Translations under genes and position numbers: made by a program | Shown here: in pieces, positions 344 to 25,702 of the stretch | Layout of the letters: each line of letters starts with the position of its first letter | Position numbering within the stretch: position 1 is the stretch's first letter | IMG/VR virus record: IMGVR_UViG_3300023179_000393 | Span: 1-28,676 of that record | DNA: 28,676 nucleotides | Reading direction: 5' to 3' (one strand) | From: a virus | Notes under the pieces: generated by a model | Seen by the model: the letters and a program-made list of their open reading frames with translations, nothing else | The model's database searches: none | What the model was told of the DNA's origin: nothing

Positions 344-1722
344 ATGCAAGTAAGCACACGCGCACAGGTAATTACTAGAAGGACCTATAATCGTCCTACT
401 AGTGATGATGGTAAACAATTTGAAAACTGGCAACAAACTATTAGGCGAGTTAAAGATCATCAACACTGGTTATGGGAGCGAGCAGTTGGTCGTCAACTCT
501 ACTTCAACGAAGTAGAAGAGCTAGATCAACTAGAAAAATTAATGTTAGAGCGTAAAGTATTAATGGCTGGTCGTACGCTTTGGTTAGGTGGTACAACAGT
601 AGCACAAACTCGTGAAGCCAGTCAATTTAATTGTAGTTTTACACAAGTAGAAACAGTATATGATGTAGTTGATGTATTATGGTTACTACTGCAAGGTGCT
701 GGAGTAGGTTTTAAGCCTATTACTGGCACACTAAATGGATTCTCAAAACCAATTAAAAATATTGAAGTTATTAAGAGTCAACGAACTGCTAAAGGTGGAC
801 TTGAATATAATGTTGAAACCTGGGACGCAAGTACAAAAACTTGGACAATTCAAGTTGGAGATAGTGCAGAAGCCTGGGCGAAGTCTATTGGAAAGTTGCT
901 TGCGGGCAAGTATCCTGCTACTACTCTTGTACTTGATTTTAGTCAACTAAGACCTGCCGGAGAAAGGTTAAAGGGATATGGATGGATTTCAAGTGGTGAT
1001 AGCGCTATTTCAAAAGCTTATGTTGCAATTGCCAACATACTTAATGGTAGGGCTGATAGCCTTCTCACTAGGATGGATATTCTTGACATTATTAATCATT
1101 TGGGAACAATCCTATCCAGTCGTAGAAGTGCTGAAATCGCTCTTTTCGACTACGGTCAACCGGAATGGCAAGAATTTGCAATAGCTAAAAAGGATTTTTG
1201 GTTGTATGGACGTGAGCACAGACAACAATCAAATAACAGTTTAGTATTTAAGGAAAAACCAACACGCCAAGAGCTTAAAGAAATATTTAATCTTATGCTA
1301 GAGGCTGGCGGTAGTGAACCAGGATTTATCAATGAACAAGAAGCTCTTAGACGTGCTCCATGGTTTAAAGGAGCGAATCCCTGTGTTGAAATTTTGCTGG
1401 GCAACAAAAGCTTCTGTAACCTTACAGAAACGGACATCTCCAAGTTTAAAGGTAATACCGCAGGACTACACGATGCGATCAGACTGGCTGCCAGGGCTAA
1501 TTATCGTCAGACCTGTGTTAATCTTAAAGACGGGATCTTACAAGAAGCTTGGCACCTTAACAACTATTTCCTACGTCTCTGTGGAGTTGGTTTAACAGGC
1601 ATTGCAATGCGTCCAGATATGACTAGCTATGACTATGAATATCTAAAACGCACTGCTACTAGCGCAGCTATCTCAATGGCTGATGAACTAGGACTACCGC
1701 GTCCTAAAAATGTTACTTGCGT
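344..1722 (+). CDS. nrdJ: Class II (B12-dependent) ribonucleotide reductase, exon 1
   Basis: Residues 1-459 and two bases of codon 460 of a monomeric adenosylcobalamin-dependent ribonucleoside-triphosphate reductase, which makes dNTPs from NTPs without oxygen. C97 in QFNCSF and C358 in SFCNL fit the active-site disulfide pair. C347 and E349 in NPCVEI fit the thiyl-radical Cys and catalytic Glu of the Lactobacillus leichmannii-type enzyme. GGAG at 336-339 precedes the ATG. Without splicing the frame continues into the intron and stops at 1880-1882, giving a 512-residue product that lacks the KPSGT phosphate loop and the C-terminal Cys pair. Joined to 2519-3104 it gives 654 residues, somewhat shorter than the bacterial enzyme (about 740). 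The host must supply cobalamin. Confidence 0.95.
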
Positions 1723-2518
1723 TAACTATAATTTGGCGCAAATAAAATCCTGTGAATTGCTGGAACATCCTATTATTGAGTTAAGGACAATCAGCAGCCA
1801 AGCCACATTGTTGTGGAAGGTTCAGAGACTATCCGTTAAGGAGTACGCACATAGTTGTGCGGAAGCGCAGGACACAGTTTAATTAACTGTGATGATATAG
1901 TCCGATCTCTATAGTAATATAGAGCAGTTTAATAGGTAATAAAATGCATTTCATATACTGTATAGTAAATAATATTTCAGGATCTATGTATATAGGTCAA
2001 ACATCTAGTAGTATATCTAGAAGATTCTACGAACATAAATATAATGCTTTTTCTATAAATAAGAAAACCAAATTATATGATGCTATGCGTAAGTATGGAG
2101 AAGATGCTTTTTATATAATTGAGTTAGAGTATGTAGAAGATAAACAGCAAGCTAATTTATCCGAAATATCTCATATCAGCGAAAGTAAGAAATTAAATAT
2201 TGAGTTATACAATATGACTGATGGTGGTGAGGGTGGTTTTGTGGTACCAACAGATAAAGTAGAAAGTTGGAAAGCAAAATTATCTACAGCTCGTAAAGGT
2301 AGAACACCTGCTCTCGGTATGAAGCACTCAGAAGAAAATAAAAAATTATTCTCTAAAGTGTCTAATGAATACTGGGAGCAACATAGGGTGTATAACTTAG
2401 ATCAAATAATTTCTTGTGGATCTTTTAAAAAAGCTAATGAATTATATGGAATTAGCAAAACTCATTATTATAGACTTATTAAACGAGCATAGACTAACGA
2501 ACTATGCTGAACATAATG
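1723..2518 (+). ncRNA. Group I self-splicing intron in the reductase gene
   Basis: A 796-base intron, identified from its RNA signatures. P1: exon end TTGCGT (1717-1722) pairs with the internal guide GCGCAA (1736-1741), leaving the expected U.G wobble at the splice site. P10: TTTG (1732-1735) pairs with CAAG (2519-2522). The intron ends in G at 2518 (omega G). The core includes CAATCAGCAGCCAAG from about 1788, and P7 GACTAT (1827-1832) pairs with ATAGTC (1897-1902) inside the typical GATATAGTCC. Hairpins lie at 1846-1861, about 1873-1891 and 1907-1924 (P9). Splicing joins codons in frame as V460-K461-P-S-G, the conserved substrate-phosphate loop. The endonuclease gene sits after P9. The subgroup (IA-like) is a guess from the hairpins between the P7 strands. 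Confidence 0.93.
1944..2492 (+). CDS. GIY-YIG homing endonuclease, intron-encoded
   Basis: A 182-residue site-specific endonuclease that would cut intron-less reductase alleles and drive intron spread. The N-terminal GIY-YIG domain shows FIYCIVN and MYIGQT about ten residues apart, then SRRFYEHK with the expected catalytic Arg, and YNMTDGGEGG near the domain end. The first motif is FIY rather than GIY. Residues about 118-142 (ARKGRTPALGMKHSEENKKL) resemble a NUMOD3 DNA-binding motif, and the C-terminus (FKKANELYGISKTHYYRLI) looks like a small helix-turn-helix of the IENR type. AGGTAA lies just upstream of the ATG. The whole frame lies in the intron, downstream of the catalytic core, so it does not disturb folding. 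It looks intact. Confidence 0.93.
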   Translation: MHFIYCIVNNISGSMYIGQTSSSISRRFYEHKYNAFSINKKTKLYDAMRKYGEDAFYIIELEYVEDKQQANLSEISHISESKKLNIELYNMTDGGEGGFVVPTDKVESWKAKLSTARKGRTPALGMKHSEENKKLFSKVSNEYWEQHRVYNLDQIISCGSFKKANELYGISKTHYYRLIKRA

Positions 2519-3104
2519 CAAGCCGTCGGGTACACTTAGCAAGATCATGGATTGTACAGAAGGGGTACACAAGCCACTAGGCAAATACATATTTAACAAT
2601 GTACAATTTAGTACTTACGATCCAATGATTCCACTATTACGAGATAGTGGTTATAAGGTAATTAATCACCCTACAGATCCTACTAGTGTACTAGTAACAT
2701 TTCCAGTAGAATGGAAAGATGTACCTTTTCATAAGGAAAATGGAAAAGAAGTAAACCTAGAAAGTGCTGTGCAGCAGCTGGAAAGATACAAGTTGTTGCA
2801 AACTAGTTGGACACAGCAAAATACGTCAGTAACAATTAGTTATGATCCTAGCGAAGTGTGCGAGATTATTGATTGGTTATTAAATAACTGGGATTGCTAT
2901 GTAGGTGTAAGTTTTATCTATAGAACTGATCCTACTAAAACCGCTCAAGATTTAGGCTATCTCTACTTACCACAAGAAGTAGTAGACGAATATACTTTTA
3001 AGAAGTATGTTCAAGATCTAAAACCAATCGACGTTGAAGCAGGCAATAGTTTTAACGAGTTATTAGACGATGAATGCGCTAGTGGTGTATGTCCTGTGCG
3101 CTGA
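2519..3104 (+). CDS. nrdJ: Class II (B12-dependent) ribonucleotide reductase, exon 2
   Basis: Residues 460-654 of the spliced reductase. It opens with KPSGTLSK (the substrate phosphate-binding loop), continues through MDCTEGVH and a stretch YDPMIPLLRDSGY as in the Lactobacillus-type enzyme, and ends in C646-A-S-G-V-C651-P-V-R, matching the swinging C-terminal Cys pair that re-reduces the active site with thioredoxin or a similar donor. The first ATG of the frame is at 2547, but it is internal: the 28 bases before it are coding and belong to the conserved loop. The stop TGA is at 3102-3104. Only when exon 1 and exon 2 are joined does one protein contain all five family cysteines, which argues for a functional spliced gene and against a pseudogene. 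Confidence 0.95.
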
Positions 3105-6533: not shown

Positions 6534-6809
6534 TTACTTCTTATCCGGTACTTTATTACCTTCTAATTTCTGATGAATCTTAACTTCCTTGCAAACTTGG
6601 TCTGGCTTACCTTCTTTATCTAAAACTGGTTTACCATCCTTTATTTTATCAATACAAGCTTTTTCTTTTTTAGCATCTTCTTTTTTACTAGGAGCTTTAT
6701 CTTCTTTTTTAGTAGGAGGTTTTTCTTCTTTTTTAATGATAGTTTCTAATGCTAAAGTATTAGTTACTAAAAAAGTTGATACTAGTAGTGCTAATAAAGT
6801 TTTTGACAT
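6534..6809 (-). CDS. Exported Lys/Glu-rich small protein
   Basis: A 91-residue protein with a clear Sec signal peptide (MSKTLLALLVSTFLVTNTLA, likely cut after about residue 20) and a highly charged mature part with imperfect repeats (PPTKKEDK, APSKKEDA, KKEK). It contains two cysteines (near residues 52 and 73) that could form a disulfide in the periplasm. There is no lipobox. The composition suggests an unfolded periplasmic linker or competitor for envelope interactions. AAGG lies upstream of the ATG. It stands between PhoH and a two-TM protein in the membrane-protein cluster. Function unknown. Confidence 0.78.
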   Translation of the reverse strand: MSKTLLALLVSTFLVTNTLALETIIKKEEKPPTKKEDKAPSKKEDAKKEKACIDKIKDGKPVLDKEGKPDQVCKEVKIHQKLEGNKVPDKK

Positions 6810-6820
6810 ATTTATAACCT

Positions 6821-7267
6821 TTATATTTCTGGAAATTGTGGTTGTGGTGGCTGTAGTTTGCCTCCAAAACCAACGGTTACTTGATTACCACCATTTGTAC
6901 CTATATTAACACCACTACTACCAACTGTAATTGTAGGCATTGTTGTAGGTGATGGGCTAGGTGGACGATCCCAACCTTTATTTGCAGATTTTAATGCTTC
7001 TTTTTGTGCTTCTTTATCTCCATGTGCTAGCATAATACCACTAAGTGTACCTGTTAAAAATGTAGCAATAGGAATTATAAGTTCAAAAAATTTATTATCT
7101 ACAGGACTCATACCATTCATTGGTTGAGTTACAAATATTAAACTATAAAGTACAACAAATACAATACCAAATAATGTTAAAGCTAGTGTCATACCTATAA
7201 AAAATTTAAGTCGAGCCATTAACTCATCTTCAGTATAGCGTGGACCACTCCATAAATCTTTAATCAT
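6821..7267 (-). CDS. Two-TM membrane protein, holin candidate
   Basis: A 148-residue protein with two hydrophobic helices (residues about 24-46, FIGMTLALTLFGIVFVVLY; and about 64-83, LIIPIATFLTGTLSGIMLA) followed by a charged segment and a Pro/Gly-rich tail ending PQPQFPEI. The N-terminus is soluble and charged. Two membrane helices and a position upstream of PhoH and downstream of lysis genes make a holin possible, but the long low-complexity tail is unusual for one. The start overlaps the upstream lipoprotein gene as ATGA. It could also be a scaffold protein in the inner membrane. Confidence 0.75.
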   Translation of the reverse strand: MIKDLWSGPRYTEDELMARLKFFIGMTLALTLFGIVFVVLYSLIFVTQPMNGMSPVDNKFFELIIPIATFLTGTLSGIMLAHGDKEAQKEALKSANKGWDRPPSPSPTTMPTITVGSSGVNIGTNGGNQVTVGFGGKLQPPQPQFPEI

Positions 7268-7476
7268 TTACAATCCTTTTGTTTTGGTCGCCATTGATTA
7301 TTGCTAATACGTTCTTTTTCATAAGGTGTTAAATCTTCAGGACATGTACCATTAGCATTACAGTAGGGTTTTTTACAGGCCTTATGCTCCCAATTATCTG
7401 GATTTTGACATGGATAACGATACATATCACTACAACTAACTAAAAATAAACTTATAATTAGTAATATTAGTGGCAT
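7264..7476 (-). CDS. Small Cys-rich lipoprotein
   Basis: A 70-residue protein with a short hydrophobic N-terminus and lipobox LVSC (cleavage before C15), so probably a lipoprotein. The mature part has six further cysteines (CQNP, CKKPYCNANGTCPED, DCK), enough for three disulfides in the periplasm or on the cell surface. AAGGG precedes the ATG. The stop overlaps the downstream two-TM gene as ATGA, so both are probably made together. A role in superinfection exclusion by a phage lipoprotein is possible by analogy only; no direct evidence is seen. Confidence 0.78.
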   Translation of the reverse strand: MPLILLIISLFLVSCSDMYRYPCQNPDNWEHKACKKPYCNANGTCPEDLTPYEKERISNNQWRPKQKDCK

Positions 7477-7479: not shown

Positions 7480-8199
7480 TTAGCCCTTTACTTTTCTTTT
7501 ACTAGTAGAAACTTTTGTGCTAGACATTAATATTGTTTTATTATGGTGTTGCACAGATATAACTAAAATTATTAAGGATATATTAATTATAGTTATTAAT
7601 AACCAGGCTAATTTCATGCTAATTTGATAGTCATGCTCTAGCCTAGTATAAACAGTTTTTGTAAATTTATCTATAGTATTCATTATTTCATTTTTATGTT
7701 TAGTGTAATCTTCTCCAAACATAAATATTTGAGCTTGTGTATAATGAAATTGTTGTACGTCCCAGTTTTGTTCTATTTTGCCAGCTTTTATAGAATCAAA
7801 TGCTTTTACTTCTAGTATGGCTAAATTATTACTTAAAGTTTCTGATTTAAGTATAAGATCTAATTCATTGGTAGAAAATTCAAATGCTTTTACTTTATCT
7901 TTAAAACTAATTTTTACATTATCTTTATTTGCTTCTTCACCATTTCTTATTTTAATAATATTTTCAAATCTTTTTTTCCATTGTTCATCTTTTGTAGTAA
8001 CATAATATCTGGCATAATTAGTAAGATCGTCGCTGCTATCAGACATTTCATTTGCTATAATCATAGCATTATTTAAATTATTTAGTTGTGTTTCAGCAGT
8101 TTTAAAAATACTTAATAATACTAAACTACATATAAAAATAATTGCTGCTAGTATAAAAGGTGTTTTAGAATAGTCTAAAATTTTATTAATTATTTTCAT
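7480..8199 (-). CDS. Chemoreceptor-like sensor domain protein without output domain
   Basis: A 239-residue protein counted from the ATG at 8199, which overlaps the stop of the preceding gene (TAATG); a GTG at 8211 would add four residues. Two membrane helices (about 14-32 and 199-217) flank a periplasmic helical domain. The pattern SDDLTNYARYYVTTKDEQW...IIKIRNGE, followed by ELDLILKSETLSNNLAILEVKA, matches the sensor half of bacterial methyl-accepting chemotaxis proteins and hybrid kinases as I remember them. After TM2 only about 20 basic residues remain: no HAMP, methyl-accepting, kinase or GGDEF domain. It could form mixed dimers with host receptors. The family match is by eye; the two-TM topology is firm. 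Confidence 0.7.
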   Translation of the reverse strand: MKIINKILDYSKTPFILAAIIFICSLVLLSIFKTAETQLNNLNNAMIIANEMSDSSDDLTNYARYYVTTKDEQWKKRFENIIKIRNGEEANKDNVKISFKDKVKAFEFSTNELDLILKSETLSNNLAILEVKAFDSIKAGKIEQNWDVQQFHYTQAQIFMFGEDYTKHKNEIMNTIDKFTKTVYTRLEHDYQISMKLAWLLITIINISLIILVISVQHHNKTILMSSTKVSTSKRKVKG

Positions 8200-8354
8200 T
8201 ATGTTATCCACTTTACAATAACTTGTAATATTTGTTTTACTTCGGCTTGATAATTTGTTAATATAAGTAAAACAAAACCTAAACCAGCTGTATGAACCTT
8301 TTTATCCGTTGTTGTAGAAGAATTTGGCGATATTTTTACGGATTTAGTTGGCAT
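8199..8354 (-). CDS. Small hydrophobic-core protein, 51 residues
   Basis: The frame reads MPTKSVKISP... with a hydrophobic stretch (AGLGFVLLILTNY, about residues 23-35) and a C-terminal amphipathic helix ending VIVKWIT. AGGAG lies 8 bases before the ATG, a better ribosome site than most genes here, and its stop overlaps the start of the sensor-like gene. The hydrophobic stretch is short for a transmembrane helix. Placed directly after the endolysin gene, it might be a small holin or an accessory membrane peptide. Function unknown. Confidence 0.65.
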   Translation of the reverse strand: MPTKSVKISPNSSTTTDKKVHTAGLGFVLLILTNYQAEVKQILQVIVKWIT

Positions 8355-8372: not shown

Positions 8373-8984
8373 TTAGCTTAATATATGTAAGCAATGTTCG
8401 TAATGTTTCTGTCTATCTTCTAAACCTATTGTTCCGCCATTAATGCGTTTTGTAAGTGTAACTATATCCTGCTTATCTGCCCACTGATTTAAATTGTTTG
8501 ATTCCCAAAACCAGCATGCACTTTGTGCAGCACCTTCAAAGGTTTCCATATATTCCGATGCTTCTTCTGGCGAAATTTGTAAGCTAGCAGCAAACCAACT
8601 GTAATTATCGCGACCAGTTACCTGTATAAGACCACGTCCACAAAATTTGTAACCATCACCTGATTCTTCACCGCCATTACCCATGCGATTAGCATAAACA
8701 CGATTAGCAATCTTTTGCGGTTGTTTTTCATATTGTTGTGCCAATGCGTCTGTAGGAAAGTATTTAGGAAAAACTTTACGCAAGCTTTGCCAGCGATAGT
8801 TAAGATTTTCTTTAATAAAAACAAAACCACCTGACTCGTGTGCACATTGTGCTAAAAAGGCAGCTATGCGATCTGGTGTGTTTATCTCATATTGCGGTAA
8901 CAGTTGTTCTAGTGCATGGTGCCAATAGGTAACATACTGATTTTTTGGTATAACTTGCTTGAGTTGATCTAGTGTTAATTCCAC
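8373..8984 (-). CDS. Endolysin, GH19 chitinase-like muramidase
   Basis: A 203-residue GH19-family lysozyme that cuts the peptidoglycan glycan strand at the end of infection. AHESGGF holds the first catalytic Glu (E50), and IKENLNY the likely second (E59). YKFCGRGLIQVTGRDNY (112-128) is the hallmark GH19 substrate-groove motif, and TKRINGG is the conserved C-terminal motif. It has no signal peptide, so it needs a holin or equivalent. It starts with GTG at 8984: AAGGAG sits five bases upstream and the G overlaps the upstream TAG. Its neighbours upstream are the two spanin-like genes, giving the order i-spanin, o-spanin, endolysin. Confidence 0.94.
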   Translation of the reverse strand: MELTLDQLKQVIPKNQYVTYWHHALEQLLPQYEINTPDRIAAFLAQCAHESGGFVFIKENLNYRWQSLRKVFPKYFPTDALAQQYEKQPQKIANRVYANRMGNGGEESGDGYKFCGRGLIQVTGRDNYSWFAASLQISPEEASEYMETFEGAAQSACWFWESNNLNQWADKQDIVTLTKRINGGTIGLEDRQKHYEHCLHILS

Positions 8985-9244
8985 TACTTCTCCTTGTTAA
9001 ATATACGTTGCTGTGTTGTATACCACTCTATCCATGCACTATTATTATCACTACAGATATGATACTCTGTATAGTTATCTACCACAATCTTAGTAAGCTC
9101 ACTTAGCTGTACACCTTGTGGAGCTTGTTTAAGCGGCTTGCAATGCTCTAGTAGCGGTTTAGGTGCTTCTGGAAAACCCTGTGTTACTGGCACTGTGGTA
9201 GCACAGCCACCTAGTGCTAGTGTTAGTATAATTGTATACTTCAT
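8984..9244 (-). CDS. Outer-membrane spanin-like lipoprotein (o-spanin)
   Basis: An 86-residue protein with a signal peptide and lipobox LGGC (C14), a Pro-containing linker (FPEAPKPLLEHCKPL), and a C-terminal helical part (VDNYTEYHICSDNNSAWIEW) that resembles unrelated-sequence o-spanins of large marine phages. An outer-membrane lipoprotein of this size beside an i-spanin and an endolysin is the standard arrangement for disrupting the outer membrane after wall digestion. The start overlaps the i-spanin stop as ATGA. The two Cys in the mature part may form a disulfide. Confidence 0.85.
   Translation of the reverse strand: MKYTIILTLALGGCATTVPVTQGFPEAPKPLLEHCKPLKQAPQGVQLSELTKIVVDNYTEYHICSDNNSAWIEWYTTQQRIFNKEK
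8990..8995 (-). promoter_or_regulatory. Ribosome binding site of the GTG-start endolysin
   Basis: AAGGAG five bases before GTG 8984; the GTG shares its first G with the upstream TAG. No in-frame ATG stands nearby with a comparable site, so the GTG start is preferred. Confidence 0.75.
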
Positions 9245-9648
9245 TGTTTTACAGCCTTGTTATGTAGATCTACTACTAGTTCTGGTATTTTACAATTTTC
9301 GTCAATTACTAGCTTTTCGCGATCTATGTACTTTACAATCTCGTTACCCTGCACACGCACTATTTCACGGCGAGTAACTACCTTTTCAACAATCTTAGTA
9401 TTTTCTTTAGCACTTTCGGCTTTAGATTGAGCTAATTTAGCCTCTACCTCTTTAACCTTAGCCAACCAATGATCGTTATTCCAGTTTGCTCCGCACATAA
9501 ATAGTGATGCAGCAAATACTATGATACTTAAGTAGTGTACAAGCTGTGCTTGTGGCAGCTTGATGAATCTACTAATTAAAAATACTAAGAGTGCTGTAAC
9601 GGCCAAGGCTGGAAAGAACCAGCTAGGTATAAAGTTTAGGATAAACAT
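9241..9648 (-). CDS. Inner-membrane spanin-like protein (i-spanin), two TMs
   Basis: A 135-residue protein with two membrane helices (about 8-27 and 38-53), then a long coiled coil (KVKEVEAKLAQSKAESAKEN and after) ending in a basic/acidic periplasmic segment (VKYIDREKLVIDENCKIPEL). The coiled coil and its position before an o-spanin gene support i-spanin function: bridging inner and outer membranes. Classic i-spanins have one helix; the extra one is typical of a subgroup I recall from marine myoviruses. It begins directly after the stop of the oxygenase gene (TAAATG) and overlaps the o-spanin. Confidence 0.85.
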   Translation of the reverse strand: MFILNFIPSWFFPALAVTALLVFLISRFIKLPQAQLVHYLSIIVFAASLFMCGANWNNDHWLAKVKEVEAKLAQSKAESAKENTKIVEKVVTRREIVRVQGNEIVKYIDREKLVIDENCKIPELVVDLHNKAVKQ

Positions 9649-10278
9649 TTATATTGTAAAACTATGTAGTGCGTTATAAAATGTTGGATTAACTGCTGAT
9701 GTTTCCCTGTCAAACATAAAATCGAACCCTAGCGTTACCCTGGGCGTGCTGCCATAGTGCATATCTGTCCAATGTACTACATTGCAAGGAAATAAACTAA
9801 CTTGTCCAGGTATATTAGGTACACGTACTAGTTCTCCATCATCAAATTTATACCAAGTATTAGTACTTACTGCTTGCAAAACCATGGTACCAGAAACAAA
9901 ACTTAGCTCATGGTTAGAGTGTTTGTGGTATCTTATACTTTCACCTTCTCTGATAACATTTACCCAACAATTTATAGCTGGATTAATTACATATTGTTGC
10001 CAGCCCTTGTTGACGATATATTGTCTATATTGATCTACTAAAAATGTTTTAAGGTCGGCTAGAGGAGGGCATTCATTTATAAACTGAAACACATTGTATG
10101 TGCCAGATCTAGAGGTTACTAGGGTACCTGGATTTGGTACATTTGGATCATCTGTACCAAAATAACTAACAAATGGATATGTATCAATAATGTATTGTTC
10201 TTTACTTAGTAAAAAACTACTAATTTCCTGAACGGCACTTTCAGGACCAAACTGACTGTTTTGTATTCTTGTTGTCAT
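9649..10278 (-). CDS. Fe(II)/2-oxoglutarate-dependent oxygenase-like protein
   Basis: A 209-residue double-stranded beta-helix protein. RYHKHSNHELSF (H118 and H120) supplies the first iron ligands, VVHWTD (H169) the distal His, and TPRVTLGFD (R180) the 2-oxoglutarate-binding Arg, in the order expected. The block HKHSN...SFVSGTMVL resembles the 2OG-FeII_Oxy_5 group. Such enzymes hydroxylate proteins, nucleic acids or small molecules; the substrate cannot be read here. It sits between the poly-glycine adhesin and the lysis genes, and its start overlaps the adhesin stop as ATGA, so a structural-protein target is possible. It is separate from the second oxygenase at 15147 and shares little sequence with it. 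Confidence 0.8.
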   Translation of the reverse strand: MTTRIQNSQFGPESAVQEISSFLLSKEQYIIDTYPFVSYFGTDDPNVPNPGTLVTSRSGTYNVFQFINECPPLADLKTFLVDQYRQYIVNKGWQQYVINPAINCWVNVIREGESIRYHKHSNHELSFVSGTMVLQAVSTNTWYKFDDGELVRVPNIPGQVSLFPCNVVHWTDMHYGSTPRVTLGFDFMFDRETSAVNPTFYNALHSFTI

Positions 10279-11219
10279 ATTGTTAAAGTATAGTAATAAG
10301 GTGAAGTGCTTCGATAAGAATAAGTATATTTAGTTGCACCTACATAAACAACTACATATCCATTACCACCAATACCTCCAGCTACTCCAGCACCTATTCC
10401 TGCAACATAGTCTGGATCGCTAATTCCTCCTGGTGACGTAGCAGTATTTGCAGCAGCATGGGATCCCAGTCCTGCATAAGGTCTTAGTGTACCTGTTTCA
10501 TTTGCATCAGCAGTAGGAAAATATGCAGTATTGAAATAACTTGATCCGCCTCCGCCACCACTACCAGGACAAGCGCCGCAATCACCAGCACCTCCGCCAC
10601 CGCCATAATAACCACCACCACCACCTGAACCAGAACAGTTGGAGCCATTACCGCCCTGTAAAAAGCTGCCAGTTCCGCCAGGACCAGCACCGCCAAAACC
10701 ACCAGTACCACCAACACCACCAGCACTTTGACCACCACCTGTTGGATCAGTAGTATTACCTGCCCAGCCTTGTGCTGTTGTGCCGCCGCCTGCACCACCT
10801 GTACCACCGCCGCCGCCTGCTACTGCTAGTAGTGTACCTACGCCTTGTATACCATTGAGATAAATATAGGAGGCTCCACCACCTGCTCTGCCGCCACCAC
10901 CTCCGCCGCCTACAGCAGTGTTTCCACCACCACTGCCTACATAAATATATAGCGTAGCACCTTGGCTTATACTGCTACCAGTACTAACTTTTATAAATCC
11001 GCCACCACCACCATAAGCGGCAGTACTATTACACTGATGTGTACCAACTCCTTGGCCGGCTCCACCCCATAACTTCAGTATAACTGGCATACCCACTGGC
11101 CAGCTACTAGCACCACGATTTTGTTGTTGGTCGCTAAGTGTCCAGATTCCAGGAGCACTAGTATTTTGTGCTCGTCTTTGTTGTCCTACAACGCCGCTAT
11201 TCCTTCTACCAATAGGCAT
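10275..11219 (-). CDS. Glycine-rich tail adhesin
   Basis: A 314-residue protein with the start taken as the ATG at 11219, because GGAGG lies at 11230-11234 and the ATG overlaps the previous stop (TAATG); an upstream start at 11237 is less likely. Residues about 65-290 are packed with glycine runs (GGGGGTGGAGG, GGGGGGGRAGGG), the pattern of a poly-glycine sheet adhesin such as gp38 of T4-like phages. The N-terminus carries APGIWTLSDQ...SSWP, a motif shared with two other adhesins here. Ser/Tyr-rich loops between glycine runs probably contact the receptor. The C-terminus (NGYVVVYVG) is a beta strand cap. Family by pattern, not by alignment. Confidence 0.82.
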   Translation of the reverse strand: MPIGRRNSGVVGQQRRAQNTSAPGIWTLSDQQQNRGASSWPVGMPVILKLWGGAGQGVGTHQCNSTAAYGGGGGFIKVSTGSSISQGATLYIYVGSGGGNTAVGGGGGGGRAGGGASYIYLNGIQGVGTLLAVAGGGGGTGGAGGGTTAQGWAGNTTDPTGGGQSAGGVGGTGGFGGAGPGGTGSFLQGGNGSNCSGSGGGGGYYGGGGGAGDCGACPGSGGGGGSSYFNTAYFPTADANETGTLRPYAGLGSHAAANTATSPGGISDPDYVAGIGAGVAGGIGGNGYVVVYVGATKYTYSYRSTSPYYYTLTI

Positions 11220-11572
11220 TAGCTTATTTCCTCCCAACTACTTACAGCTACTAGTTTACTATTAGTATCAGCAGTCAATCTAAGAGTATCTCCCTCTAAT
11301 AGGTATATTGATTTACTAATAATATCCAGTGTACTATTTGCTGGGATACTTACACTTACTGCTAGTGGATATGCTGTACTGCTTCTAAATAAATCTACTG
11401 TAACTTTATAACCAGTACTAGCATCATTGTTACTAACGTATAAGCTATTTATTTTATAAACTTTATTGCTGTTTGCACTATTGGTAATAATTGCTGTTGC
11501 ACTAGTAGTGATGGCTAATACTCCAGTATTACCAATTATTGTTTGTACGCCAACTATATTAGGTGCTGCCAT
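11219..11572 (-). CDS. Small beta-rich tail protein, MA(A/T)PNIVGV family
   Basis: A 117-residue protein starting MAAPNIVGVQ and ending in LVAVSSWEEIS. The ATG at 11572 fits the start of its paralogue and lies two bases past the upstream stop; the frame could begin further up, but those codons overlap the previous gene. It is almost all beta-strand and Ser/Thr/Asn-rich, with NKVYKINSLYVSN and VSIPANSTLDII. The 24123-24503 product has the same beginning (MATPNIVGV) and end (LVASYETI), so the two are duplicates that diverged. Both sit beside large adhesins, suggesting a virion accessory or decoration protein. No catalytic motif. Confidence 0.75.
   Translation of the reverse strand: MAAPNIVGVQTIIGNTGVLAITTSATAIITNSANSNKVYKINSLYVSNNDASTGYKVTVDLFRSSTAYPLAVSVSIPANSTLDIISKSIYLLEGDTLRLTADTNSKLVAVSSWEEIS
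11230..11234 (-). promoter_or_regulatory. Ribosome binding site that sets the poly-glycine adhesin start
   Basis: GGAGG ten bases upstream of the ATG at 11219, inside the last codons of the preceding gene. It supports 11219 over the upstream start at 11237. Confidence 0.7.
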
Positions 11573-11573
11573 A

Positions 11574-12134
11574 TTATGCTCCGCCAAATACAATAGACAT
11601 AGCTATTGCTTTTCCTGTTGTTAATTGTGTACCAGGTACCCACTTATTACTACTGCTATTCCATACTAGGGCCTGGCTGTTAGTAGGTGCGCTAGTTGTT
11701 GTGTCTACATCACTCAATGCGTCTATGCTAGTAGTGCCAAGTTTAGTAGCTACTCTGGCGTCTGTGTAGTAGAGATTTGTTGAACCTTCAGTAACACTAT
11801 CAGTACTGCCTGGAGTAGCTACAATTTCTACATAAACACTACCCGACCAGCGATATACCTTGTTGTTGTTTACAGTCAAGTATATTTTGCCAGTTTCGCC
11901 AGTGGCTGGTAGACTTGCTTGATTTGCGTACTCTAGTACGTCGTCTACATAACTGGGTAGCTGAGCACTTGCAACCTTGCCGGTACTGTCTAAACCAGCG
12001 TAACCACTGTTTTGATTTTTATTTGTAGTATTTTCCGGTGTAAATCCTAGTGCAGTAGTTATATCTGTTGATGTTCCACCGCTAGCTAGTAAACCTGTAC
12101 TAACGGCTGTGGCAAGTGTTGCGGCTTTGGTCAT
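11574..12134 (-). CDS. Tail fibre protein with VYRWSGS repeat module
   Basis: A 186-residue protein made of short tail-fibre modules. GKVASAQLPSYVDDVLEY followed by SLPATGETGKIYLTVNNNK and VYRWSGSVYV is shared with the 25080-25592 product. ALSDVDTTTSAPTNSQALVW...WVPGT is shared with the 13434-14528 product. The C-terminus (GKAIAMSIVFGG) resembles that of the 24516-25070 product. An 18-base stretch at 11838-11855 is identical to 25140-25157. AAGGATAAA lies upstream of the ATG. It is likely a trimeric fibre shaft or connector between baseplate and adhesins; the exact position is unknown. Confidence 0.8.
   Translation of the reverse strand: MTKAATLATAVSTGLLASGGTSTDITTALGFTPENTTNKNQNSGYAGLDSTGKVASAQLPSYVDDVLEYANQASLPATGETGKIYLTVNNNKVYRWSGSVYVEIVATPGSTDSVTEGSTNLYYTDARVATKLGTTSIDALSDVDTTTSAPTNSQALVWNSSSNKWVPGTQLTTGKAIAMSIVFGGA
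11838..11855. repeat. 18-base direct repeat, copy 1
   Basis: ACTACCCGACCAGCGATA on the plus strand, identical to 25140-25157. It encodes the VYRWSGS part of the fibre module shared by two genes, and is the best-preserved DNA of an old duplication or gene conversion. Confidence 0.85.
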
Positions 12135-12144
12135 CTTTTATCCT

Positions 12145-12306
12145 TTAACTAACATTTACCCACACACCGCCTACAAATGCTTGTAACTTATTTGTAGTGG
12201 TATTATATCTAAGTGCTCCAGCTATAGTTGGAGTAGGTGCTGCGGCTGTTGTACCTGGTGTAAGTACACTGGTGTTTGCGGCTGAGGTTCCTGCGTATAG
12301 TGCCAT
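12145..12306 (-). CDS. Single-module tail peptide, 53 residues
   Basis: The frame is MALYAGTSAANTSVLTPG..., followed by the module TTAAAPTPTIAGALRYNTTT and LQAFVGGVW. It has the same pattern as the repeats in the 16191-17690 protein (TTAQRP...VRYNTT...VYNGTSW) and in the 12520-13434 protein (ATRPASPTAGTMFYNT). Here one module forms a whole gene. AGTAGGG precedes the ATG, and the stop is 11 bases before the start of the next gene. Probably a virion component; it could be the remainder of a longer fibre. Confidence 0.7.
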   Translation of the reverse strand: MALYAGTSAANTSVLTPGTTAAAPTPTIAGALRYNTTTNKLQAFVGGVWVNVS

Positions 12307-12314
12307 AATTTACC

Positions 12315-12518
12315 CTACTTAATGTCGTTAAACCATGTTGGTTTATCTATTGTAAATTTTGGAAATTTATTCCACTTATTTAGTGGACATTCACTGTGTG
12401 GTAAAACTGCTTTATATTTCATATAACATCCACAATGATTACATTTTTCATCAACTAGATCAGTACAAATATTACAGATACTCATACGCTGTTTGTAGTA
12501 TTCTAAAGCTAACCACAT
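12315..12518 (-). CDS. Zinc-ribbon-like small protein, CPLNKW family
   Basis: A 67-residue protein with Cys at 15, 18, 26, 29, 31 and 44: CNIC, CNHCGCYM and ECPLNKW. A second copy at 15715-15909 has Cys at 13, 16, 26, 29, 31 and 44 and the same CYM and CPLNKW, so the two are paralogues. The pattern fits a DUF6171-type zinc ribbon, which recurs as a small gene in phage tail regions. No membrane or signal segment. The start follows the upstream fibrinogen-like gene by one base. The function is unknown; a chaperone or metal-binding role in fibre assembly is a guess. Confidence 0.78.
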   Translation of the reverse strand: MWLALEYYKQRMSICNICTDLVDEKCNHCGCYMKYKAVLPHSECPLNKWNKFPKFTIDKPTWFNDIK

Positions 12519-12519
12519 A

Positions 12520-13434
12520 CTATCTTATAAAAATTGATGCTGCACTGCTGTTAGAAGAACCTCCCCAACCAATACTACCTGCTGACATACTAGATAAACC
12601 ACTCATCCAATGAAGATTAGTTCCAAGTCCTGTAGCATCAAAGCCAAAACAGATTGGTACACTGTTATATGGAGGAGTTACACTAAAGCTTCCGTTATAA
12701 TTATGATCTATATACCAAATAGCTCCACCACCTACTCCAGACCAATACGAATTTGGTCCACATAAACTTCTAGTATCATTAGTATATGTACAACTATAAT
12801 CATAAGTACCATCACTAGTCGTATCTAGAGATAAGGTATAGGAAACTGTTGGATCTATAGCTGTGCCAAAATTTCCTAAAGTTCCGCTATTTACAGTAAA
12901 TTTTCCTGTTCCAGATCCATTATTTAATAAATTGTCCGATCCATTACTAACCCTAAATAAAAAGGCTGTATTAATACCTCCGCTTTGTAAAGCTAAAATA
13001 TCTGCACTAGATAGTTTTCCTGCTGCTTGATTAATTTCTGCTGTAGTCCATGAACCATTTGCATTAATTGCAGAACTAGTGTCCATATTGGTTCCACCAT
13101 AGTACTGTAGTATTTTCATCCAGCCACCACCATCTCTGGTAAATATACAATATGTTTGAAATGCTGTACCGCTACCACCAGTAGGCTTAATCCAATATAC
13201 GCCATTAGTTGCAGAAGGATTAGCCGCTTTAATTGCATTAGCAGATAATGCCGGATTATTTTCAGTACCTAGCGCGGATTGTCCAAATTGTGCCCATTCA
13301 TTACCAAGATAGTTTTCAAAAGCTTTATTAGCAGTATTGTAAAACATTGTTCCAGCTGTTGGACTAGCAGGACGTGTGGCACTGGCTGCTAGTATTTGTG
13401 TATTGGAAGAACTAGTGCCTATAATAAAAGCCAT
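12520..13434 (-). CDS. Tail adhesin with fibrinogen-like domain
   Basis: A 304-residue protein. Residues about 17-50 are one copy of the ATRPASPTAGTMFYNT...W tail module. From about 64 a fibrinogen-related pattern appears: NPSATNGVYWIKPTGG, AFQTYCIFTRDGGGWMKIL, which is the start of a fibrinogen C-terminal domain (P-x-S-G-x-Y-x-I ... C-x-F ... GGGW). The rest includes several Cys and many Trp/Tyr/Asn, consistent with a carbohydrate-binding tip. Fibrinogen-like modules are known from bacterial and phage fibres. The first ATG overlaps the previous stop (TAATG). Binding target unknown. Confidence 0.8.
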   Translation of the reverse strand: MAFIIGTSSSNTQILAASATRPASPTAGTMFYNTANKAFENYLGNEWAQFGQSALGTENNPALSANAIKAANPSATNGVYWIKPTGGSGTAFQTYCIFTRDGGGWMKILQYYGGTNMDTSSAINANGSWTTAEINQAAGKLSSADILALQSGGINTAFLFRVSNGSDNLLNNGSGTGKFTVNSGTLGNFGTAIDPTVSYTLSLDTTSDGTYDYSCTYTNDTRSLCGPNSYWSGVGGGAIWYIDHNYNGSFSVTPPYNSVPICFGFDATGLGTNLHWMSGLSSMSAGSIGWGGSSNSSAASIFIR

Positions 13435-14528
13435 TATACTTCCTCCAGTTTAATCTTGTAGCGCTTGCCGGTTCTGTTGTTGAGCATGTAGATGTTGGTT
13501 TCGCCTTCCTGCAAGGTCCAACTACCCCAGGTACCGTCCACACTATTACTGCTACCCTCATTGCTAAAGTGCATGTCAGCAGTGTAGATATTACGCCAGC
13601 GATAGGTAAAGCTACCTAAATCTTGAGCATTATCACTACCAGGTAAAACTAAACCACCTGCAGTTATTCGCATACGTTCTACAGGTACTCCGGCACCACT
13701 CATCCCACGTAAACTAAAGGTTAATGCTGCCTCTGTTGGATCTGTCCAGAATCCACCCATTAAGGCAATTCTTCCTAAAGCTACCTGATCACTTTTATGC
13801 TGTAAAAATATACCTACATAACCTGTTGTAGTTTGATCAGTATTAGCTAAATACAATACGTCACTAGGGCTATACCCTACATTAGTGGCATATGCTGTAG
13901 TATCACTTACTGTAATTTTTGAGGGGGCACCAGCATTTAAAGCACCACCAATACCAACACCACCTGTTACTATTAGTGCACCTGTAGTTGAACTACTACT
14001 AGCAGTGCTACTAGTTATAGACAGTGCACCAGTTAATGTGCCACCACTAGTGTTTAATTTATTGCCAAGACTGGTAGTAATAGTAGTACTAAAATTAGCA
14101 TCATTGCCTAGTGCAGTGGCTAGCTCATTTAAGGTATTTAGTGTACTTGGGGCACTAGCAACTAAGTCAGCAACCGCTGCACTAACAAAGGCTGTTGTAG
14201 CTAACTGAGTAGTATTAGTTCCCAAAGCAGCAGTAGGTGCTGCTGGTATTCCAGTAAATGTTGGACTGGCTACTGTTGCTAAACCGGTTATAGCGCCAGT
14301 ACTACCATTAACACTAGTAACTCCGCTATTAATAGTACCAGGTACCCAGTTGGATACGCCACTACTCCAAACTAGTGCTTGATTATTTTGTGGTGCTTGA
14401 GTGACTGTATCTACATCACTAAGTGCGTTGGCATTTAAGCCGGTAATATCACTAGCATTAATTACGCCAGTGGCTAGCGGATTACCACTACTAACAGCCT
14501 TGCCTAGGCTTCGGGCTTTTGATGGCAT
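13434..14528 (-). CDS. Tail fibre with conserved C-terminal NRTGKRYKIKLEEV
   Basis: A 364-residue fibre protein. N-terminus: ALSDVDTVTQAPQNNQALVW module. Centre: TLNTLNELATALGNDANFST and GNKLNTSGGTLTGAL, typical trimeric shaft repeats of marine phages, then ALIVTGGVGIGGAL. The C-terminus (about 316-364) ends GTWGSWTLQEGETNIYMLNN and RTGKRYKIKLEEV, a block I recall from the ends of cyanophage and pelagiphage tail fibres. AAGGATAAATT precedes the ATG, and the stop overlaps the next gene (TAATG). No catalytic residues are seen. Confident as a fibre; its exact place in the tail is unknown. Confidence 0.88.
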   Translation of the reverse strand: MPSKARSLGKAVSSGNPLATGVINASDITGLNANALSDVDTVTQAPQNNQALVWSSGVSNWVPGTINSGVTSVNGSTGAITGLATVASPTFTGIPAAPTAALGTNTTQLATTAFVSAAVADLVASAPSTLNTLNELATALGNDANFSTTITTSLGNKLNTSGGTLTGALSITSSTASSSSTTGALIVTGGVGIGGALNAGAPSKITVSDTTAYATNVGYSPSDVLYLANTDQTTTGYVGIFLQHKSDQVALGRIALMGGFWTDPTEAALTFSLRGMSGAGVPVERMRITAGGLVLPGSDNAQDLGSFTYRWRNIYTADMHFSNEGSSNSVDGTWGSWTLQEGETNIYMLNNRTGKRYKIKLEEV

Positions 14529-14560
14529 AATTTATCCTTGTAAATTAGTGTATAGTTATA

Positions 14561-14710
14561 CTATTTCCAAAAGAACCATATGGGCTCATAAGCAAAAGTA
14601 TAGCCTGCAATAGATTTCATACCATTAGCAGTAGTACCTTCTACTCCGGCTCCTTGTCCTAAATACCCATTAGTTCCATCATTATTGAAAAGGTCCTGGT
14701 CTAGTTGATA
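14561..14710 (-). pseudogene. Displaced 3' end of a former tail gene
   Basis: Open reading of 49 codons with no usable start near its beginning: YQLDQDLFNNDGTNGYLGQG, then GAGVEGTTANGMKSIAGY and TFAYEPIWFFWK before TAG. The composition is protein-like (Gly, Asn, Tyr, Trp), and CTAG is dense at its upstream end, like the resident fibre genes. A stop (TAG at 14711-14713) closes the frame upstream. I read it as the left-over C-terminus of an older fibre gene cut off by the insertion of the adjacent block. An in-frame ATG near residue 31 could make only a 19-residue peptide. Confidence 0.5.
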
Positions 14711-14729
14711 CTAGTATTTAACTGCGTGA

Positions 14730-14813
14730 CTATTTCAATGTGAATTTTAGTTCAATATTAACAGAAAACCCTACAGGCAATTCACCAATCAGTGTAGGAT
14801 TACTAAGAAACAT
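14730..14813 (-). CDS. Very short ORF, 27 residues, doubtful
   Basis: The frame MFLSNPTLIG, then ELPVGFSVNIELKFTLK, then TAG. The residue mix (strand-like, no low-complexity runs) looks coding, but there is no clear ribosome site and a stop codon in the same frame lies about 15 bases before the ATG. It fills most of the 14711-14829 gap together with an imperfect hairpin (CCTACA...TGTAGG). It may be a fragment of the gene whose end is at 14561, or a real peptide. Confidence 0.3.
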   Translation of the reverse strand: MFLSNPTLIGELPVGFSVNIELKFTLK

Positions 14814-14829
14814 TATCGGAATATTTTAT

Positions 14830-15150
14830 TTACGTTTTTGGATGTGTATCTTTAATTAATTTAATATTGCTATAAAAAGGTTCTATTCTTTTCGTTTCAT
14901 CGTTATTCATGCCATGCCACAACATATCCAGCTGTTCACCAATTGGTGGATATCGTCTATCTCTTTGATATTGTTTATTGTTCCAGTCATTTTCTAATAG
15001 TGCTTTTCTTTGTTCAACAAGAGCATGATCAATATCAACTATATTTCCATTACTATCTCTAGCTATGATCGTGCCATTTTCATCCGAAACACCGGTAACA
15101 TTGTTATAAAGTTCTAATATGGCTTCGTGGTCAAATCGTTTATATATCAT
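14830..15150 (-). CDS. Small tail-region protein with YPPIGEQLDML motif
   Basis: A 106-residue protein. The ATG at 15150 overlaps the previous stop as ATGA, so I chose it over the in-frame ATG at 15165. The C-terminal half carries RRYPPIGEQLDMLWHGM...IKLIKDTHPK, a pattern (YP...EQLDMLW...IK...PK) seen in many small phage proteins beside tail fibres; in others it is called a tail-fibre assembly or chaperone-like protein. The first half holds VTGVSDENGTIIARDSNGN, a short beta hairpin. No membrane segment. It ends the imported-looking block and lies downstream of an oxygenase gene. Function inferred only from position. Confidence 0.72.
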   Translation of the reverse strand: MIYKRFDHEAILELYNNVTGVSDENGTIIARDSNGNIVDIDHALVEQRKALLENDWNNKQYQRDRRYPPIGEQLDMLWHGMNNDETKRIEPFYSNIKLIKDTHPKT

Positions 15151-15731
15151 AAAATAACATTCCATGCTATACTGACTCTTAGTTGATCTGACTCGTTATG
15201 AGGGACAGTATAATGTTCTAACCAAGACGGAAAAACTAAACCCATTCCTACTTTAGGTTGGATAATCATTTGTTGTCCAGCCGATAACCGAGAATATCTA
15301 GCGGCTGGCCTAGGGTCTATAAAAATCAACGAACCATAATTTTCTATAAAACTGTCAGGAATACTAACGTAATAGCAACCACTTATGTCGGCTCCGGGAT
15401 GGACATGGCATAAAGACATATCATTAGCCCCCAGCACTACATACCAACATTCTATTTTTGCTTGAGAAAAATCTAATGATTGGTTGGTTTGTTCTGTAAA
15501 ATACTTTGAGCTCACGTCTTGTAAAAAATTTTTAAGGCCTCGAGACCATACGGCATCAATATCAGTAAGGTTTGGTTCGCCATGAGCTGTGGTTTTACCA
15601 TTTAAACTATAACGATTTCTTTTCGTCTGATCTATGTTTTGATTGACGTATTCAAGTAAATCAACATGAAAATTTTGACTGTCTTTGGGTACGTGAAATT
15701 CTAAAATATTAGTACTAAAGCATTTCATCAT
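15147..15731 (-). CDS. 2-oxoglutarate/Fe(II) oxygenase, Oxy_5 type
   Basis: A 194-residue protein with the complete motif set: C-H109-V-H111-PGADISGCYYV, the distal FPSWLEHY (H173) and VPH178, and R185 in LRVSIAWN for 2-oxoglutarate. This is the pattern of the 2OG-FeII_Oxy_5 (putative oxygenase) family found in phages and bacteria. The start has ATG at 15731 and 15728 in tandem, with GGAG upstream. It overlaps the Cys-rich small gene by 17 bases and the next gene by ATGA. Being embedded among fibre genes suggests that it modifies a fibre protein or a surface target, but the substrate is not visible. Confidence 0.85.
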   Translation of the reverse strand: MMKCFSTNILEFHVPKDSQNFHVDLLEYVNQNIDQTKRNRYSLNGKTTAHGEPNLTDIDAVWSRGLKNFLQDVSSKYFTEQTNQSLDFSQAKIECWYVVLGANDMSLCHVHPGADISGCYYVSIPDSFIENYGSLIFIDPRPAARYSRLSAGQQMIIQPKVGMGLVFPSWLEHYTVPHNESDQLRVSIAWNVIL

Positions 15732-15909
15732 CGATTGATCTCCAAGAGTTTTTGTTTTTCCCCCATTTGTTTAAGGGACAATAGGATTCCTGTAATCGAG
15801 TTTTTATCGGCATATAACACATACAAATTTCGCATATTTTAAACTTACTATTAAATTTTTCGCAGTTCATACATATTTCATATCTTTTTATAGAATCGCT
15901 CAAAATCAT
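15715..15909 (-). CDS. Zinc-ribbon-like small protein, second CPLNKW copy
   Basis: A 64-residue protein with Cys at 13, 16, 26, 29, 31 and 44 and CYM, CPLNKW, the same layout as the 12315-12518 product. GAGGAG at about 15921-15926 supports the ATG at 15909 even though this makes it overlap the thioredoxin-like gene by 32 bases. It lies between that gene and the 2-oxoglutarate oxygenase. Two copies in one tail region, one resident and one in the imported-looking block, suggest that the protein accompanies fibres. Confidence 0.78.
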   Translation of the reverse strand: MILSDSIKRYEICMNCEKFNSKFKICEICMCYMPIKTRLQESYCPLNKWGKNKNSWRSIDDEML

Positions 15910-16189
15910 TTTTTATAAGCTCCTCTGGTGCTATTCCTACTCTTAATCTTGGTTCAGATAAATCCTTCCTAAATAGATACAAAATTGGAACTTCGGGCGG
16001 CGGAAAGGGCATATCATCGGCTTCAATAAAATATATATTGTCGTTAATAAAAGTCTTTAAAATATTTGCGGCTTCTGGTATAAATTGCCCACAAACTTCG
16101 CACCGATCTGAAAAAACAAAAAATGCTTGATCTACTTGATTTTTTGTCAATTCCACTGCCTGTGAATATTCAATATTTTTTTTAATCAT
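15878..16189 (-). CDS. Thioredoxin-fold protein with CxxC
   Basis: A 103-residue protein with start at ATG 16189, one base after the upstream stop; the longer in-frame start (16258) lies inside the previous gene. FFVFSDRCEVCGQFIP places C30-x-x-C33 after a beta strand as in thioredoxins, and ADDMPFPPPEVPILYLF resembles the cis-Pro segment. It would act in the cytoplasm (no signal). Possible role: forming or reducing the disulfides of Cys-rich adhesins next to it, such as the lectin tip of the neighbour. It might instead serve the reductase; distance argues against this. The fold is read by eye. Confidence 0.7.
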   Translation of the reverse strand: MIKKNIEYSQAVELTKNQVDQAFFVFSDRCEVCGQFIPEAANILKTFINDNIYFIEADDMPFPPPEVPILYLFRKDLSEPRLRVGIAPEELIKNDFERFYKKI

Positions 16190-16190
16190 A

Positions 16191-17690
16191 TCAATTTGAA
16201 CAAGAATAAGTTCTAGTAAAGCCCGCTTCGGCAGCAACGCAGGTATAATTGTTTGCACCGGCTGTACAAGTATAACGTATAGAAAAACTCTTACTTGATC
16301 CGCCTTGAGGATCGCCGTAATCTAATGGATTAAAATTACAAGTTTGCTGTCCGTTGCAGACGCTTTGAAATTGTGTAATTCTGTTACCACCTGTGCCGTC
16401 GGAACATCCACTTAGGTAATTGGCGTACACCCCCGTTATTGTATTTGCAATAACGACAATATTAAAAGCTCTGTCTGCTGTTTTGTTAAAGGAATTAGTA
16501 GCTCGTAGTGTAAAATTCCATGTTTGTACTGTAGTACCAGCAGAAACAGTGCCCGAAATGGCTCCAGATGAGTTTATGCTCAACCCTGAGGGCAGTGACC
16601 CCGACGCCACCGAATACCCAGTAATCGTTCCGTAGGCAGTGGTGGCAGCTACAGTAACAGTAGAAAATGTTGCTGTCCTGGCAGTACTTGCACCTAACTT
16701 ACCTGAAGCTGTTGTCCAAGTTGGTGGAGGCATTTCGGCCAGTATATTAAAAGTACGATCAGTGAAATTACCAGCGTTATCTGTTGCTCGCAAAATAAAT
16801 TCAACCACTGTGTCAGAAGCATAAGATGTAGATAATGTTCCTGTTATTTGTCCATTGGAAGATAAAGATAACCCAGTTGGCAAAGCATTGGCCTGTAGAC
16901 TGTAGGTCACAGAACTGCCCACATCAGCATCAGTGGCTAACACAGTAATATTAGCCGCGGTCCCTATAGTAACGTTCCCGATTCCTCCAGAAGCAGTTTG
17001 CCAAACCGGTGGTTGACCGCAATCAATACAATCTAATTTAGTAAATAATCCGCTGGCCTGTATTACTTTAACATCCAGTGGACCCTCACTAATGGTAAAA
17101 TCACGCGGTGTAGTGGCCCTGAGTTGCGATGGATCTACCACTACTACCGATAAAGATGAGTATTCTATACCAGCATTTGAAATAAATTTAACAATAGCGT
17201 CACTGGTAAAATTAGCACCGGTAATTGTAAATAAAGTTCCTGATTCACCGTTGAATGTAGCAGGGCTTATGGTACTAATTGAAGGCGGTTGTGCGCCAAA
17301 TGCACCCCATCCACCTTGAGTATAAACTTCTGCAAATCCTGTTGTGCTATTATACCGCATCATACCCACAGTAGGTGTAGCAGGACGTTGCGCAGTAGTA
17401 CCGCTGGGCAAGTCAAAAAATCCTGTACTGCTACTCTCAGCATCATAAACTGTGCCAACTGGCAGCCAACTAGTACCGTTATAAACTTCTACTGTAGCCA
17501 GTGTTGTGTTATATCGTACTGAACCACTAGTAGTGCTCACAGGGCGCTGTGCGGTTGTACCACTTGGTAGATCTATATAACCTGTACTAGTATTTGCCTG
17601 ATCGCTAATTTGACTAGGTGTGACGGTTACTCCGGTTAGAACACCTGTATCAGATATAATACTAGCTTGTTGAAACGCGCGACTTGGCAT
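16191..17690 (-). CDS. Tail adhesin with Ig-like domains and SUEL-type lectin tip
   Basis: A 499-residue adhesin. Two tandem tail modules start STGYIDLPSGTTAQRP (about 35) and STGFFDLPSGTTAQRP (about 88). An IPT/TIG-like domain (about 137-215, ITGANFTSDAIVKF) and two Ig-like He_PIG domains (about 227-318 and 324-414; LPTGLSLSS, LPSGLSINSSG) follow. The tip (418-476) resembles the SUEL galactose/rhamnose-binding lectin: VCNGQQTCNFN...YGDPQGGSSKSFSIRYTC, with Cys at 429, 445, 451 and 475. Two more Cys (484, 497) may add a disulfide. AAGGAG lies upstream of the ATG. CTAG is dense in the first 80 codons and sparse after that. The lectin call is from the Cys and GDP pattern; sugar specificity unknown. 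Confidence 0.8.
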   Translation of the reverse strand: MPSRAFQQASIISDTGVLTGVTVTPSQISDQANTSTGYIDLPSGTTAQRPVSTTSGSVRYNTTLATVEVYNGTSWLPVGTVYDAESSSTGFFDLPSGTTAQRPATPTVGMMRYNSTTGFAEVYTQGGWGAFGAQPPSISTISPATFNGESGTLFTITGANFTSDAIVKFISNAGIEYSSLSVVVVDPSQLRATTPRDFTISEGPLDVKVIQASGLFTKLDCIDCGQPPVWQTASGGIGNVTIGTAANITVLATDADVGSSVTYSLQANALPTGLSLSSNGQITGTLSTSYASDTVVEFILRATDNAGNFTDRTFNILAEMPPPTWTTASGKLGASTARTATFSTVTVAATTAYGTITGYSVASGSLPSGLSINSSGAISGTVSAGTTVQTWNFTLRATNSFNKTADRAFNIVVIANTITGVYANYLSGCSDGTGGNRITQFQSVCNGQQTCNFNPLDYGDPQGGSSKSFSIRYTCTAGANNYTCVAAEAGFTRTYSCSN

Positions 17691-17699
17691 AGTAACTCC

Positions 17700-18011: not shown

Positions 18012-18013
18012 AT

Positions 18014-21499: not shown

Positions 21500-21507
21500 A
21501 TTTACTC

Positions 21508-24120: not shown

Positions 24121-24122
24121 CT

Positions 24123-24503: not shown

Positions 24504-24515
24504 TGTATTTTCCTA

Positions 24516-25070: not shown

Positions 25071-25079
25071 ATTTGCCCC

Positions 25080-25592: not shown

Positions 25593-25604
25593 AGTTTATT
25601 CCTG

Positions 25605-25694: not shown

Positions 25695-25702
25695 ATCTAT
25701 CC

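Follow-up and report, generated by a model that had tools for sequence, protein, structure and literature searches.

The sensor gene of the 28,676-nucleotide window (the whole stretch of DNA that was analysed, positions 1 to 28,676 of IMG/VR virus record IMGVR_UViG_3300023179_000393) encodes a phage version of a bacterial receptor input domain, and it belongs to a family of viral sensors of its own, all examined members of which are without an output domain. We tentatively propose that this phage-domesticated input domain acts as a lysis-timing sensor in the manner of an antiholin, a role that seems plausible, if somewhat short of probable. It is the most economical account of the conserved bundle, the constant membrane partner, the lack of an output and the recurrent placement in lysis cassettes. 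The genes concerned are given below in their order on the minus strand, in which a PhoH gene also lies between those for the Lys-rich and the coiled-coil proteins:

9241..9648, minus strand: inner-membrane spanin (Rz-like), by matches to PHROG 4952 (E=3e-12) and to Rz-like PHROGs (0.004-0.02); overlaps the Rz1-like gene
8984..9244, minus strand: outer-membrane spanin lipoprotein (Rz1/LysC-like), by position, signal sequence and a PF23793 match (E=2.8e-4) below the curated cut-off
8373..8984, minus strand: endolysin, by PHROG 181 (E=6e-76), with a weak GH19-type match
8199..8354, minus strand: small partner ORF of 51 aa upstream of the sensor, with a basic N-terminus and a hydrophobic ..LGFVLLILTNYQAEVKQ.. 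segment
7480..8199, minus strand: orphan sensor protein of 239 aa, with TM1, a predicted periplasmic helical bundle of ~160 aa, TM2 and a basic tail
7264..7476, minus strand: small lipoprotein, kept beside the sensor in L002, L033 and L160
6821..7267, minus strand: small multi-TM protein (PHROG 25359), whose position alone makes it a candidate holin
6534..6809, minus strand: secreted Lys-rich protein, from the family that also follows the holin gene in L132, L158 and L125
5644..5829, minus strand: single-TM coiled-coil small protein accompanying the phage cyclase
4422..5654, minus strand: class III nucleotide cyclase (PF00211, E=2.1e-10), possible separate output of the sensor

The sensor protein and its bacterial relatives

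The limits of the sensor gene are exact, with an ATG at 8199 and a stop codon at 7480-7482. Hydropathy places the starts of two TM segments near residues 10 and 192, so that the protein begins with a short N-terminus and TM1, continues with a predicted helical domain of ~160 residues in the periplasm, and closes with TM2 and a basic tail of 23 residues (about residues 217-239, QHHNKTILMSSTKVSTSKRKVKG, net +6). The protein is predicted to reside in the inner membrane, with the bundle in the periplasm and the basic tail in the cytoplasm. The initial annotation of this DNA had described two membrane helices around a helical periplasmic domain and a cytoplasmic part of about 20 basic residues, and both the hydropathy and the structural model presented below bear out this predicted arrangement. 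The dN/dS of the sensor against close relatives is 0.12-0.13, and across the viral family it is about 0.07-0.23 for unsaturated pairs, which points to strong purifying selection.

The SDDLT..AR.YV.T....RNG pattern, previously noticed as typical of bacterial sensor proteins, is the signature of a genuine bacterial sensor family. A tblastn search with the window sensor recovers plasmid-borne chemoreceptors of Vibrio at 4e-12. A profile HMM made solely of bacterial sequences, namely the best 80 of at least 445 relatives confirmed in a genome scan, detects the window sensor with 136 bits (E=6.6e-38, scaled to a million sequences), and none of 1000 shuffled versions of the sensor was reported by it at E<=100. 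Bacterial ORFs bearing the domain are mostly 460-1320 aa long and carry MCP, histidine kinase, GGDEF, SpoIIE-like phosphatase or class III cyclase outputs. The viral form and the bacterial input domain (motif ADELRQSSDDLTRLARTYV.TGD...IRNG; e.g. the Vibrio tasmaniensis MCP, WP_139686249.1) have in common the order TM1-bundle-TM2, about 24 near-invariant core residues and the predicted fold, at a sensor-domain identity of 21-31%. The residues that are near-invariant across viruses and bacteria include D58 as well as D57, R64, R85, E112, E130, K169 and R186, the latter seven being kept at >=99% in viruses and in bacteria. However, the viral sensors differ from the bacterial receptors in the absence of HAMP and of any output, in lacking the YWD-type insertion of most bacterial members, and in the possession of a basic tail and a constant small partner ORF. 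They are further set apart by changes in the ADELRQ segment (residues 49-54, beside the signature), which is near-invariant in the bacterial receptors. Four TM residues, P14, S25, W199 and N206, are conserved specifically in the viruses, suggesting a fixed membrane partner.

This conserved domain, which is widespread in bacteria, has no Pfam model, and no solved structure of it was found by sequence. The window sensor matches no Pfam family at E<=1, including 4HB_MCP_1, TarH and CHASE3, so that the match to 4HB_MCP or TarH contemplated in the initial annotation did not materialize; HAMP and MCPsignal domains are equally without a Pfam match in it, and the bacterial homologues too lack any match in their sensor region. 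Searches of NCBIfam, PHROGs and PDB sequences with the window sensor gave nothing useful, a profile of the bacterial domain found no credible relative among PDB sequences, and tblastn against annotated phage records returned no match to the sensor. The as yet un-named SSDDLT sensor domain merits a family model of its own. Among 143 genomes sampled from one bacterial class the family is present in only 6, and the matching frames in these 143 are all >=348 aa, bar one weak partial. Three short ORFs (L046, L050 and L106) that were considered as bacterial input-only versions were rejected upon being re-read as frameshifted or nonsense-broken full-length receptors.

A confident AlphaFold2 model of the sensor (pLDDT 90.8, pTM 0.78, from a 38-sequence alignment) comprises two long helices, one of which supplies TM1 together with the first helix of the bundle while the other continues into TM2, as well as shorter helices. 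This predicted structure is similar to the periplasmic four-helix sensor domain of the histidine kinase Adeh_2942 (4k0d), which is the best match to a sensor protein in Foldseek searches of the PDB (TM-score 0.75 by target length, rmsd 3.7, probability 1.00); NarQ, PcaY_PP and TorS are also among the matches. The four-helix-bundle periplasmic fold that the phage sensor appears to have in common with 4k0d, NarQ and the PcaY_PP ligand-binding domain is not accompanied by detectable sequence similarity. The likeness is judged by TM-score and probability because no Foldseek match reaches E<=0.001: these sensor proteins are matched with weak E-values (0.13-0.2), and proteins with long helices come ahead of them in the ranking. 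The protein displays both the similarity to a sensor family and the predicted bundle-like fold whose joint absence had been named as evidence against a sensor. Two phage proteins of about 200 aa, A0A6J7WR66 of an uncultured Caudovirales phage and A0A0U2SAH3 of Pseudomonas phage SM1, have a similar predicted helical fold, at identities to the phage sensor of 20% and 11%, respectively, the second being a weak match (E=0.24).

Relatives of the sensor were recovered in two scans on 51 IMG/VR contigs, in records of up to 303 kb. The complete viral members examined are 236-261 aa long, with basic tails of net +5 to +16, and an output domain is absent from all of them. In a careful tree the 12 viral sequences included form one clade against 80 bacterial ones with a support of 100/100, and in a quick tree all 38 of 38 viral sensors likewise group together. 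The genes directly after the sensor in the window encode a lipoprotein and then a membrane protein, with no output domain there. Hence, the earlier statement that no output domain follows holds for the window sensor and its complete viral homologues, and is to be qualified in that the gene run also encodes a class III cyclase, 1.8 kb downstream of the sensor. In the open-licence literature we found no report of phage-encoded chemoreceptors and no earlier description of a captured bacterial receptor input domain in a phage.

The initial annotation went on to suggest that an input-only receptor of this kind could dimerise with host chemoreceptors or kinases, to which cyclases with the same sensor domain may be added, and alter their output. 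As an orphan input module the protein stands, being phage-encoded, input-only, homologous to receptor domains and bundle-like in predicted fold; the hetero-dimerisation with host proteins is not directly supported and we consider it quite unlikely. Receptors of these kinds act as dimers, and the homology to the input domains of MCPs, kinases, GGDEF proteins, SpoIIE-like phosphatases and class III cyclases is a true one. Against this, the low identity to the bacterial members, the alteration in viruses of the near-invariant bacterial ADELRQ and the confinement of the family to 6 of the 143 sampled genomes all weigh against such dimerisation, and the idea leaves the constant small partner and the placement beside lysis genes (see below) unexplained.

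The small partner and the lysis genes

Directly before the sensor gene is a small ORF (8199-8354) that was missed in the initial annotation, and whose stop overlaps the sensor start by 1 nt in the window (TAATG). A small basic membrane ORF abuts or overlaps the sensor in 38 of 38 viral loci with readable upstream DNA; its 3' end and the sensor start are no more than a few bases apart, and usually the two genes overlap by 4 nt. Members of this small ORF family are about 51-70 aa long, with a basic Pro/Ala-rich start followed by ..LG..MVILTNYQAEVKQ.., and their LTNYQ.E.K segment is nearly invariant. The constancy of this abutting ORF and the conservation of LTNYQ.E.K point to coupled translation and a joint function with the sensor.

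The gene order Rz-Rz1-endolysin-small ORF-sensor seen in the window recurs in L002, L160 and L132. Variants of it are Rz-endolysin-small ORF-sensor-holin in L158 and Rz-Rz1-small ORF-sensor-...-endolysin-holin in L125, L127 and L130; a convergent endolysin lies 0.2 kb from the sensor in L028 and L032, and a holin 1-2 kb from it in L122 and L157. In L024, L027, L138, L140 and L143 the sensor and the lysis genes are 13-61 kb apart. Altogether, where a lysis gene could be located, about one record in two has the sensor inside or close to a lysis cassette (spanins, endolysin, holin). Of the 14 records of >=15 kb in which a lysis gene was located, 9 have one within 4 kb of the sensor (3.3 expected), as do 2 of the 7 such records of >=50 kb (0.7 expected), counts that serve as a guide only because the records are related rather than independent. 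Taken together, the small partner present in all 38 readable loci and the recurrent lysis-cassette placement, both overlooked by the host-receptor reading, favor a lysis-timing regulator over meddling with host chemoreceptors. Unrelated membrane accessory genes are common in lysis regions, and the sensor region also holds genes without a lysis role, such as those for PhoH, the cyclase and DUF4337. In 18 of 41 viral loci (L026, L027, L125, L133 and others), the gene directly after that for the sensor encodes a DUF4337-type membrane protein (PF14235, recognised via an L016 relative); owing to this adjacency, DUF4337 was rejected as an allelic replacement of the sensor.

The neighbourhood also bears on whether the sensor is itself a holin with a sensory domain inserted between its two TM helices. 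Its class-II-like topology, charged C-terminal tail and position adjoining the endolysin gene would fit such a protein, and Pfam and PHROG holin profiles recognise no holin in the window. In L132 and L158, however, the gene immediately after the sensor encodes a holin that scores above the Pfam curated cut-off (PF11351, PHROG 3427), which makes a holin function of the sensor dispensable in those two records. The sensor has no sequence match to any holin or antiholin in Pfam or PHROGs, and we regard its being a holin as highly improbable. The place of the L132 and L158 holin, before the gene for the secreted Lys-rich protein, is held in the window by the multi-TM gene; homology of its product to the Pfam holin was rejected at an hhalign probability of 0.5%.

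A role in superinfection exclusion, or another accessory function at the envelope, would involve no signalling: the bundle, together with the small partner, would keep out the DNA of an incoming phage or obstruct infection at a periplasmic step. Exclusion genes often form membrane and periplasmic cassettes of variable genomic position, as this two-gene cassette does, and the neighbours of the sensor are often membrane or secreted proteins (DUF4337, lipoproteins, a WxWxGDV secreted protein). Nevertheless, the ligand-type core retained at >=99% (D57, R64, R85, E112, E130, K169 and R186) goes beyond the needs of a mere plug, and PHROGs hold no superinfection-exclusion family matching the sensor or the small ORF, rendering this function unlikely. 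Sequence similarity to a holin or an exclusion family, which had also been named as evidence against a sensor, was accordingly absent from the Pfam and PHROGs results.

The class III cyclase

The phage cyclase carries a helical C-terminal region of ~250 aa. Its relatives occur on 13 IMG/VR contigs, usually beside a gene for a TM coiled-coil protein of 57-78 aa, and annotated phage records gave no tblastn match to it. By reading, three bacterial receptor-type class III cyclases (L052, L104 and L073) have the same sensor domain fused to the cyclase, which makes it attractive to view the phage genes as a split receptor, wherein the sensor, perhaps together with the small TM coiled-coil protein, would control the cyclase of the same gene run. 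The proximity of the genes is in line with this: sensor, TM coiled-coil gene and cyclase are adjacent in L003 and within 2 kb in the window and L002, and a different cyclase lies 0.9 kb from the sensor in L146. In contrast to the bacterial fusions, the phage proteins are encoded by separate genes, with no HAMP or linker to couple them, and most sensor-bearing phages have no cyclase. Only these four of 47 sensor-bearing records checked carry one, none of nine other sensor records of 80-303 kb does, and nine cyclase-bearing records of up to 400 kb are without the sensor. On these counts an obligate pairing of the two was rejected, a split receptor cyclase appears very unlikely, and the cyclase may be a local addition rather than a general function of the sensor. 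In cyclase phages that lack the sensor, a single-TM gene overlaps the cyclase start (L012 5556-6011, L016 5568-6011, L022 5571-6011) and is a candidate membrane regulator.

A proposed role in lysis timing, and other genes of the window

Sensing of host density and of superinfection is known from phages. T4 and ICP1 detect superinfection and postpone lysis by means of antiholins in the membrane or periplasm, whose genes often lie close to those of holins (PMC11413866, PMC7182436); T4 RI/RIII-T and ICP1 ArrA-TeaA are small phage proteins of this type that sense their surroundings and gate the holin (PMC11413866, PMC7182436). By analogy, the phage sensor might work like T4 RI or ICP1 ArrA, proteins that keep the holin in check upon superinfection, without being homologous to them: its predicted architecture is the unrelated one of a captured two-TM bacterial receptor domain.

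Under the proposed role in lysis timing, an ancestral phage would have captured the TM1-periplasmic four-helix bundle-TM2 unit of a bacterial transmembrane receptor, with the HAMP and output being dropped, and the sensor would be made by coupled translation with the tiny basic membrane protein. Starting from the observed homology, predicted fold and topology, output loss in the members examined, constant partner, purifying selection and lysis placement in about half of the assessable records, we infer every step after membrane insertion. The sensor and the small protein might associate with each other and, as a complex, touch the holin within the membrane. A periplasmic signal, such as a small ligand, superinfecting phage material or envelope stress, would then shift the bundle, and this shift could either hold back or release holin triggering. 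A more ambitious version, which we judge to be rather unlikely, is that large phages stripped the output from a captured chemoreceptor-type ligand-sensing domain and paired it with a small membrane protein such that host periplasmic chemistry determines when the cell lyses; holin control would then be receptor-gated, unlike T4-type lysis inhibition. If the sensor family gates lysis or host signalling, the four-helix bundle would offer a tractable ligand-binding module for what phages measure before lysis.

Elsewhere in the window, a ribonucleotide reductase gene (344-3104) is interrupted by a group I intron (Rfam RF00028 at 1713-1924, E=3.4e-26), and an ORF within the split gene (1944-2492) resembles, by eye, a GIY-YIG homing endonuclease; L002 has an uninterrupted ribonucleotide reductase gene of 654 aa. 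The region 10275-28372 is a run of large tail or adhesin-like proteins. The protein at 18014-21499 has relatives among cyanophage structural proteins and in Phage DSL-LC04, where the related protein carries the annotation concanavalin A-like lectin.
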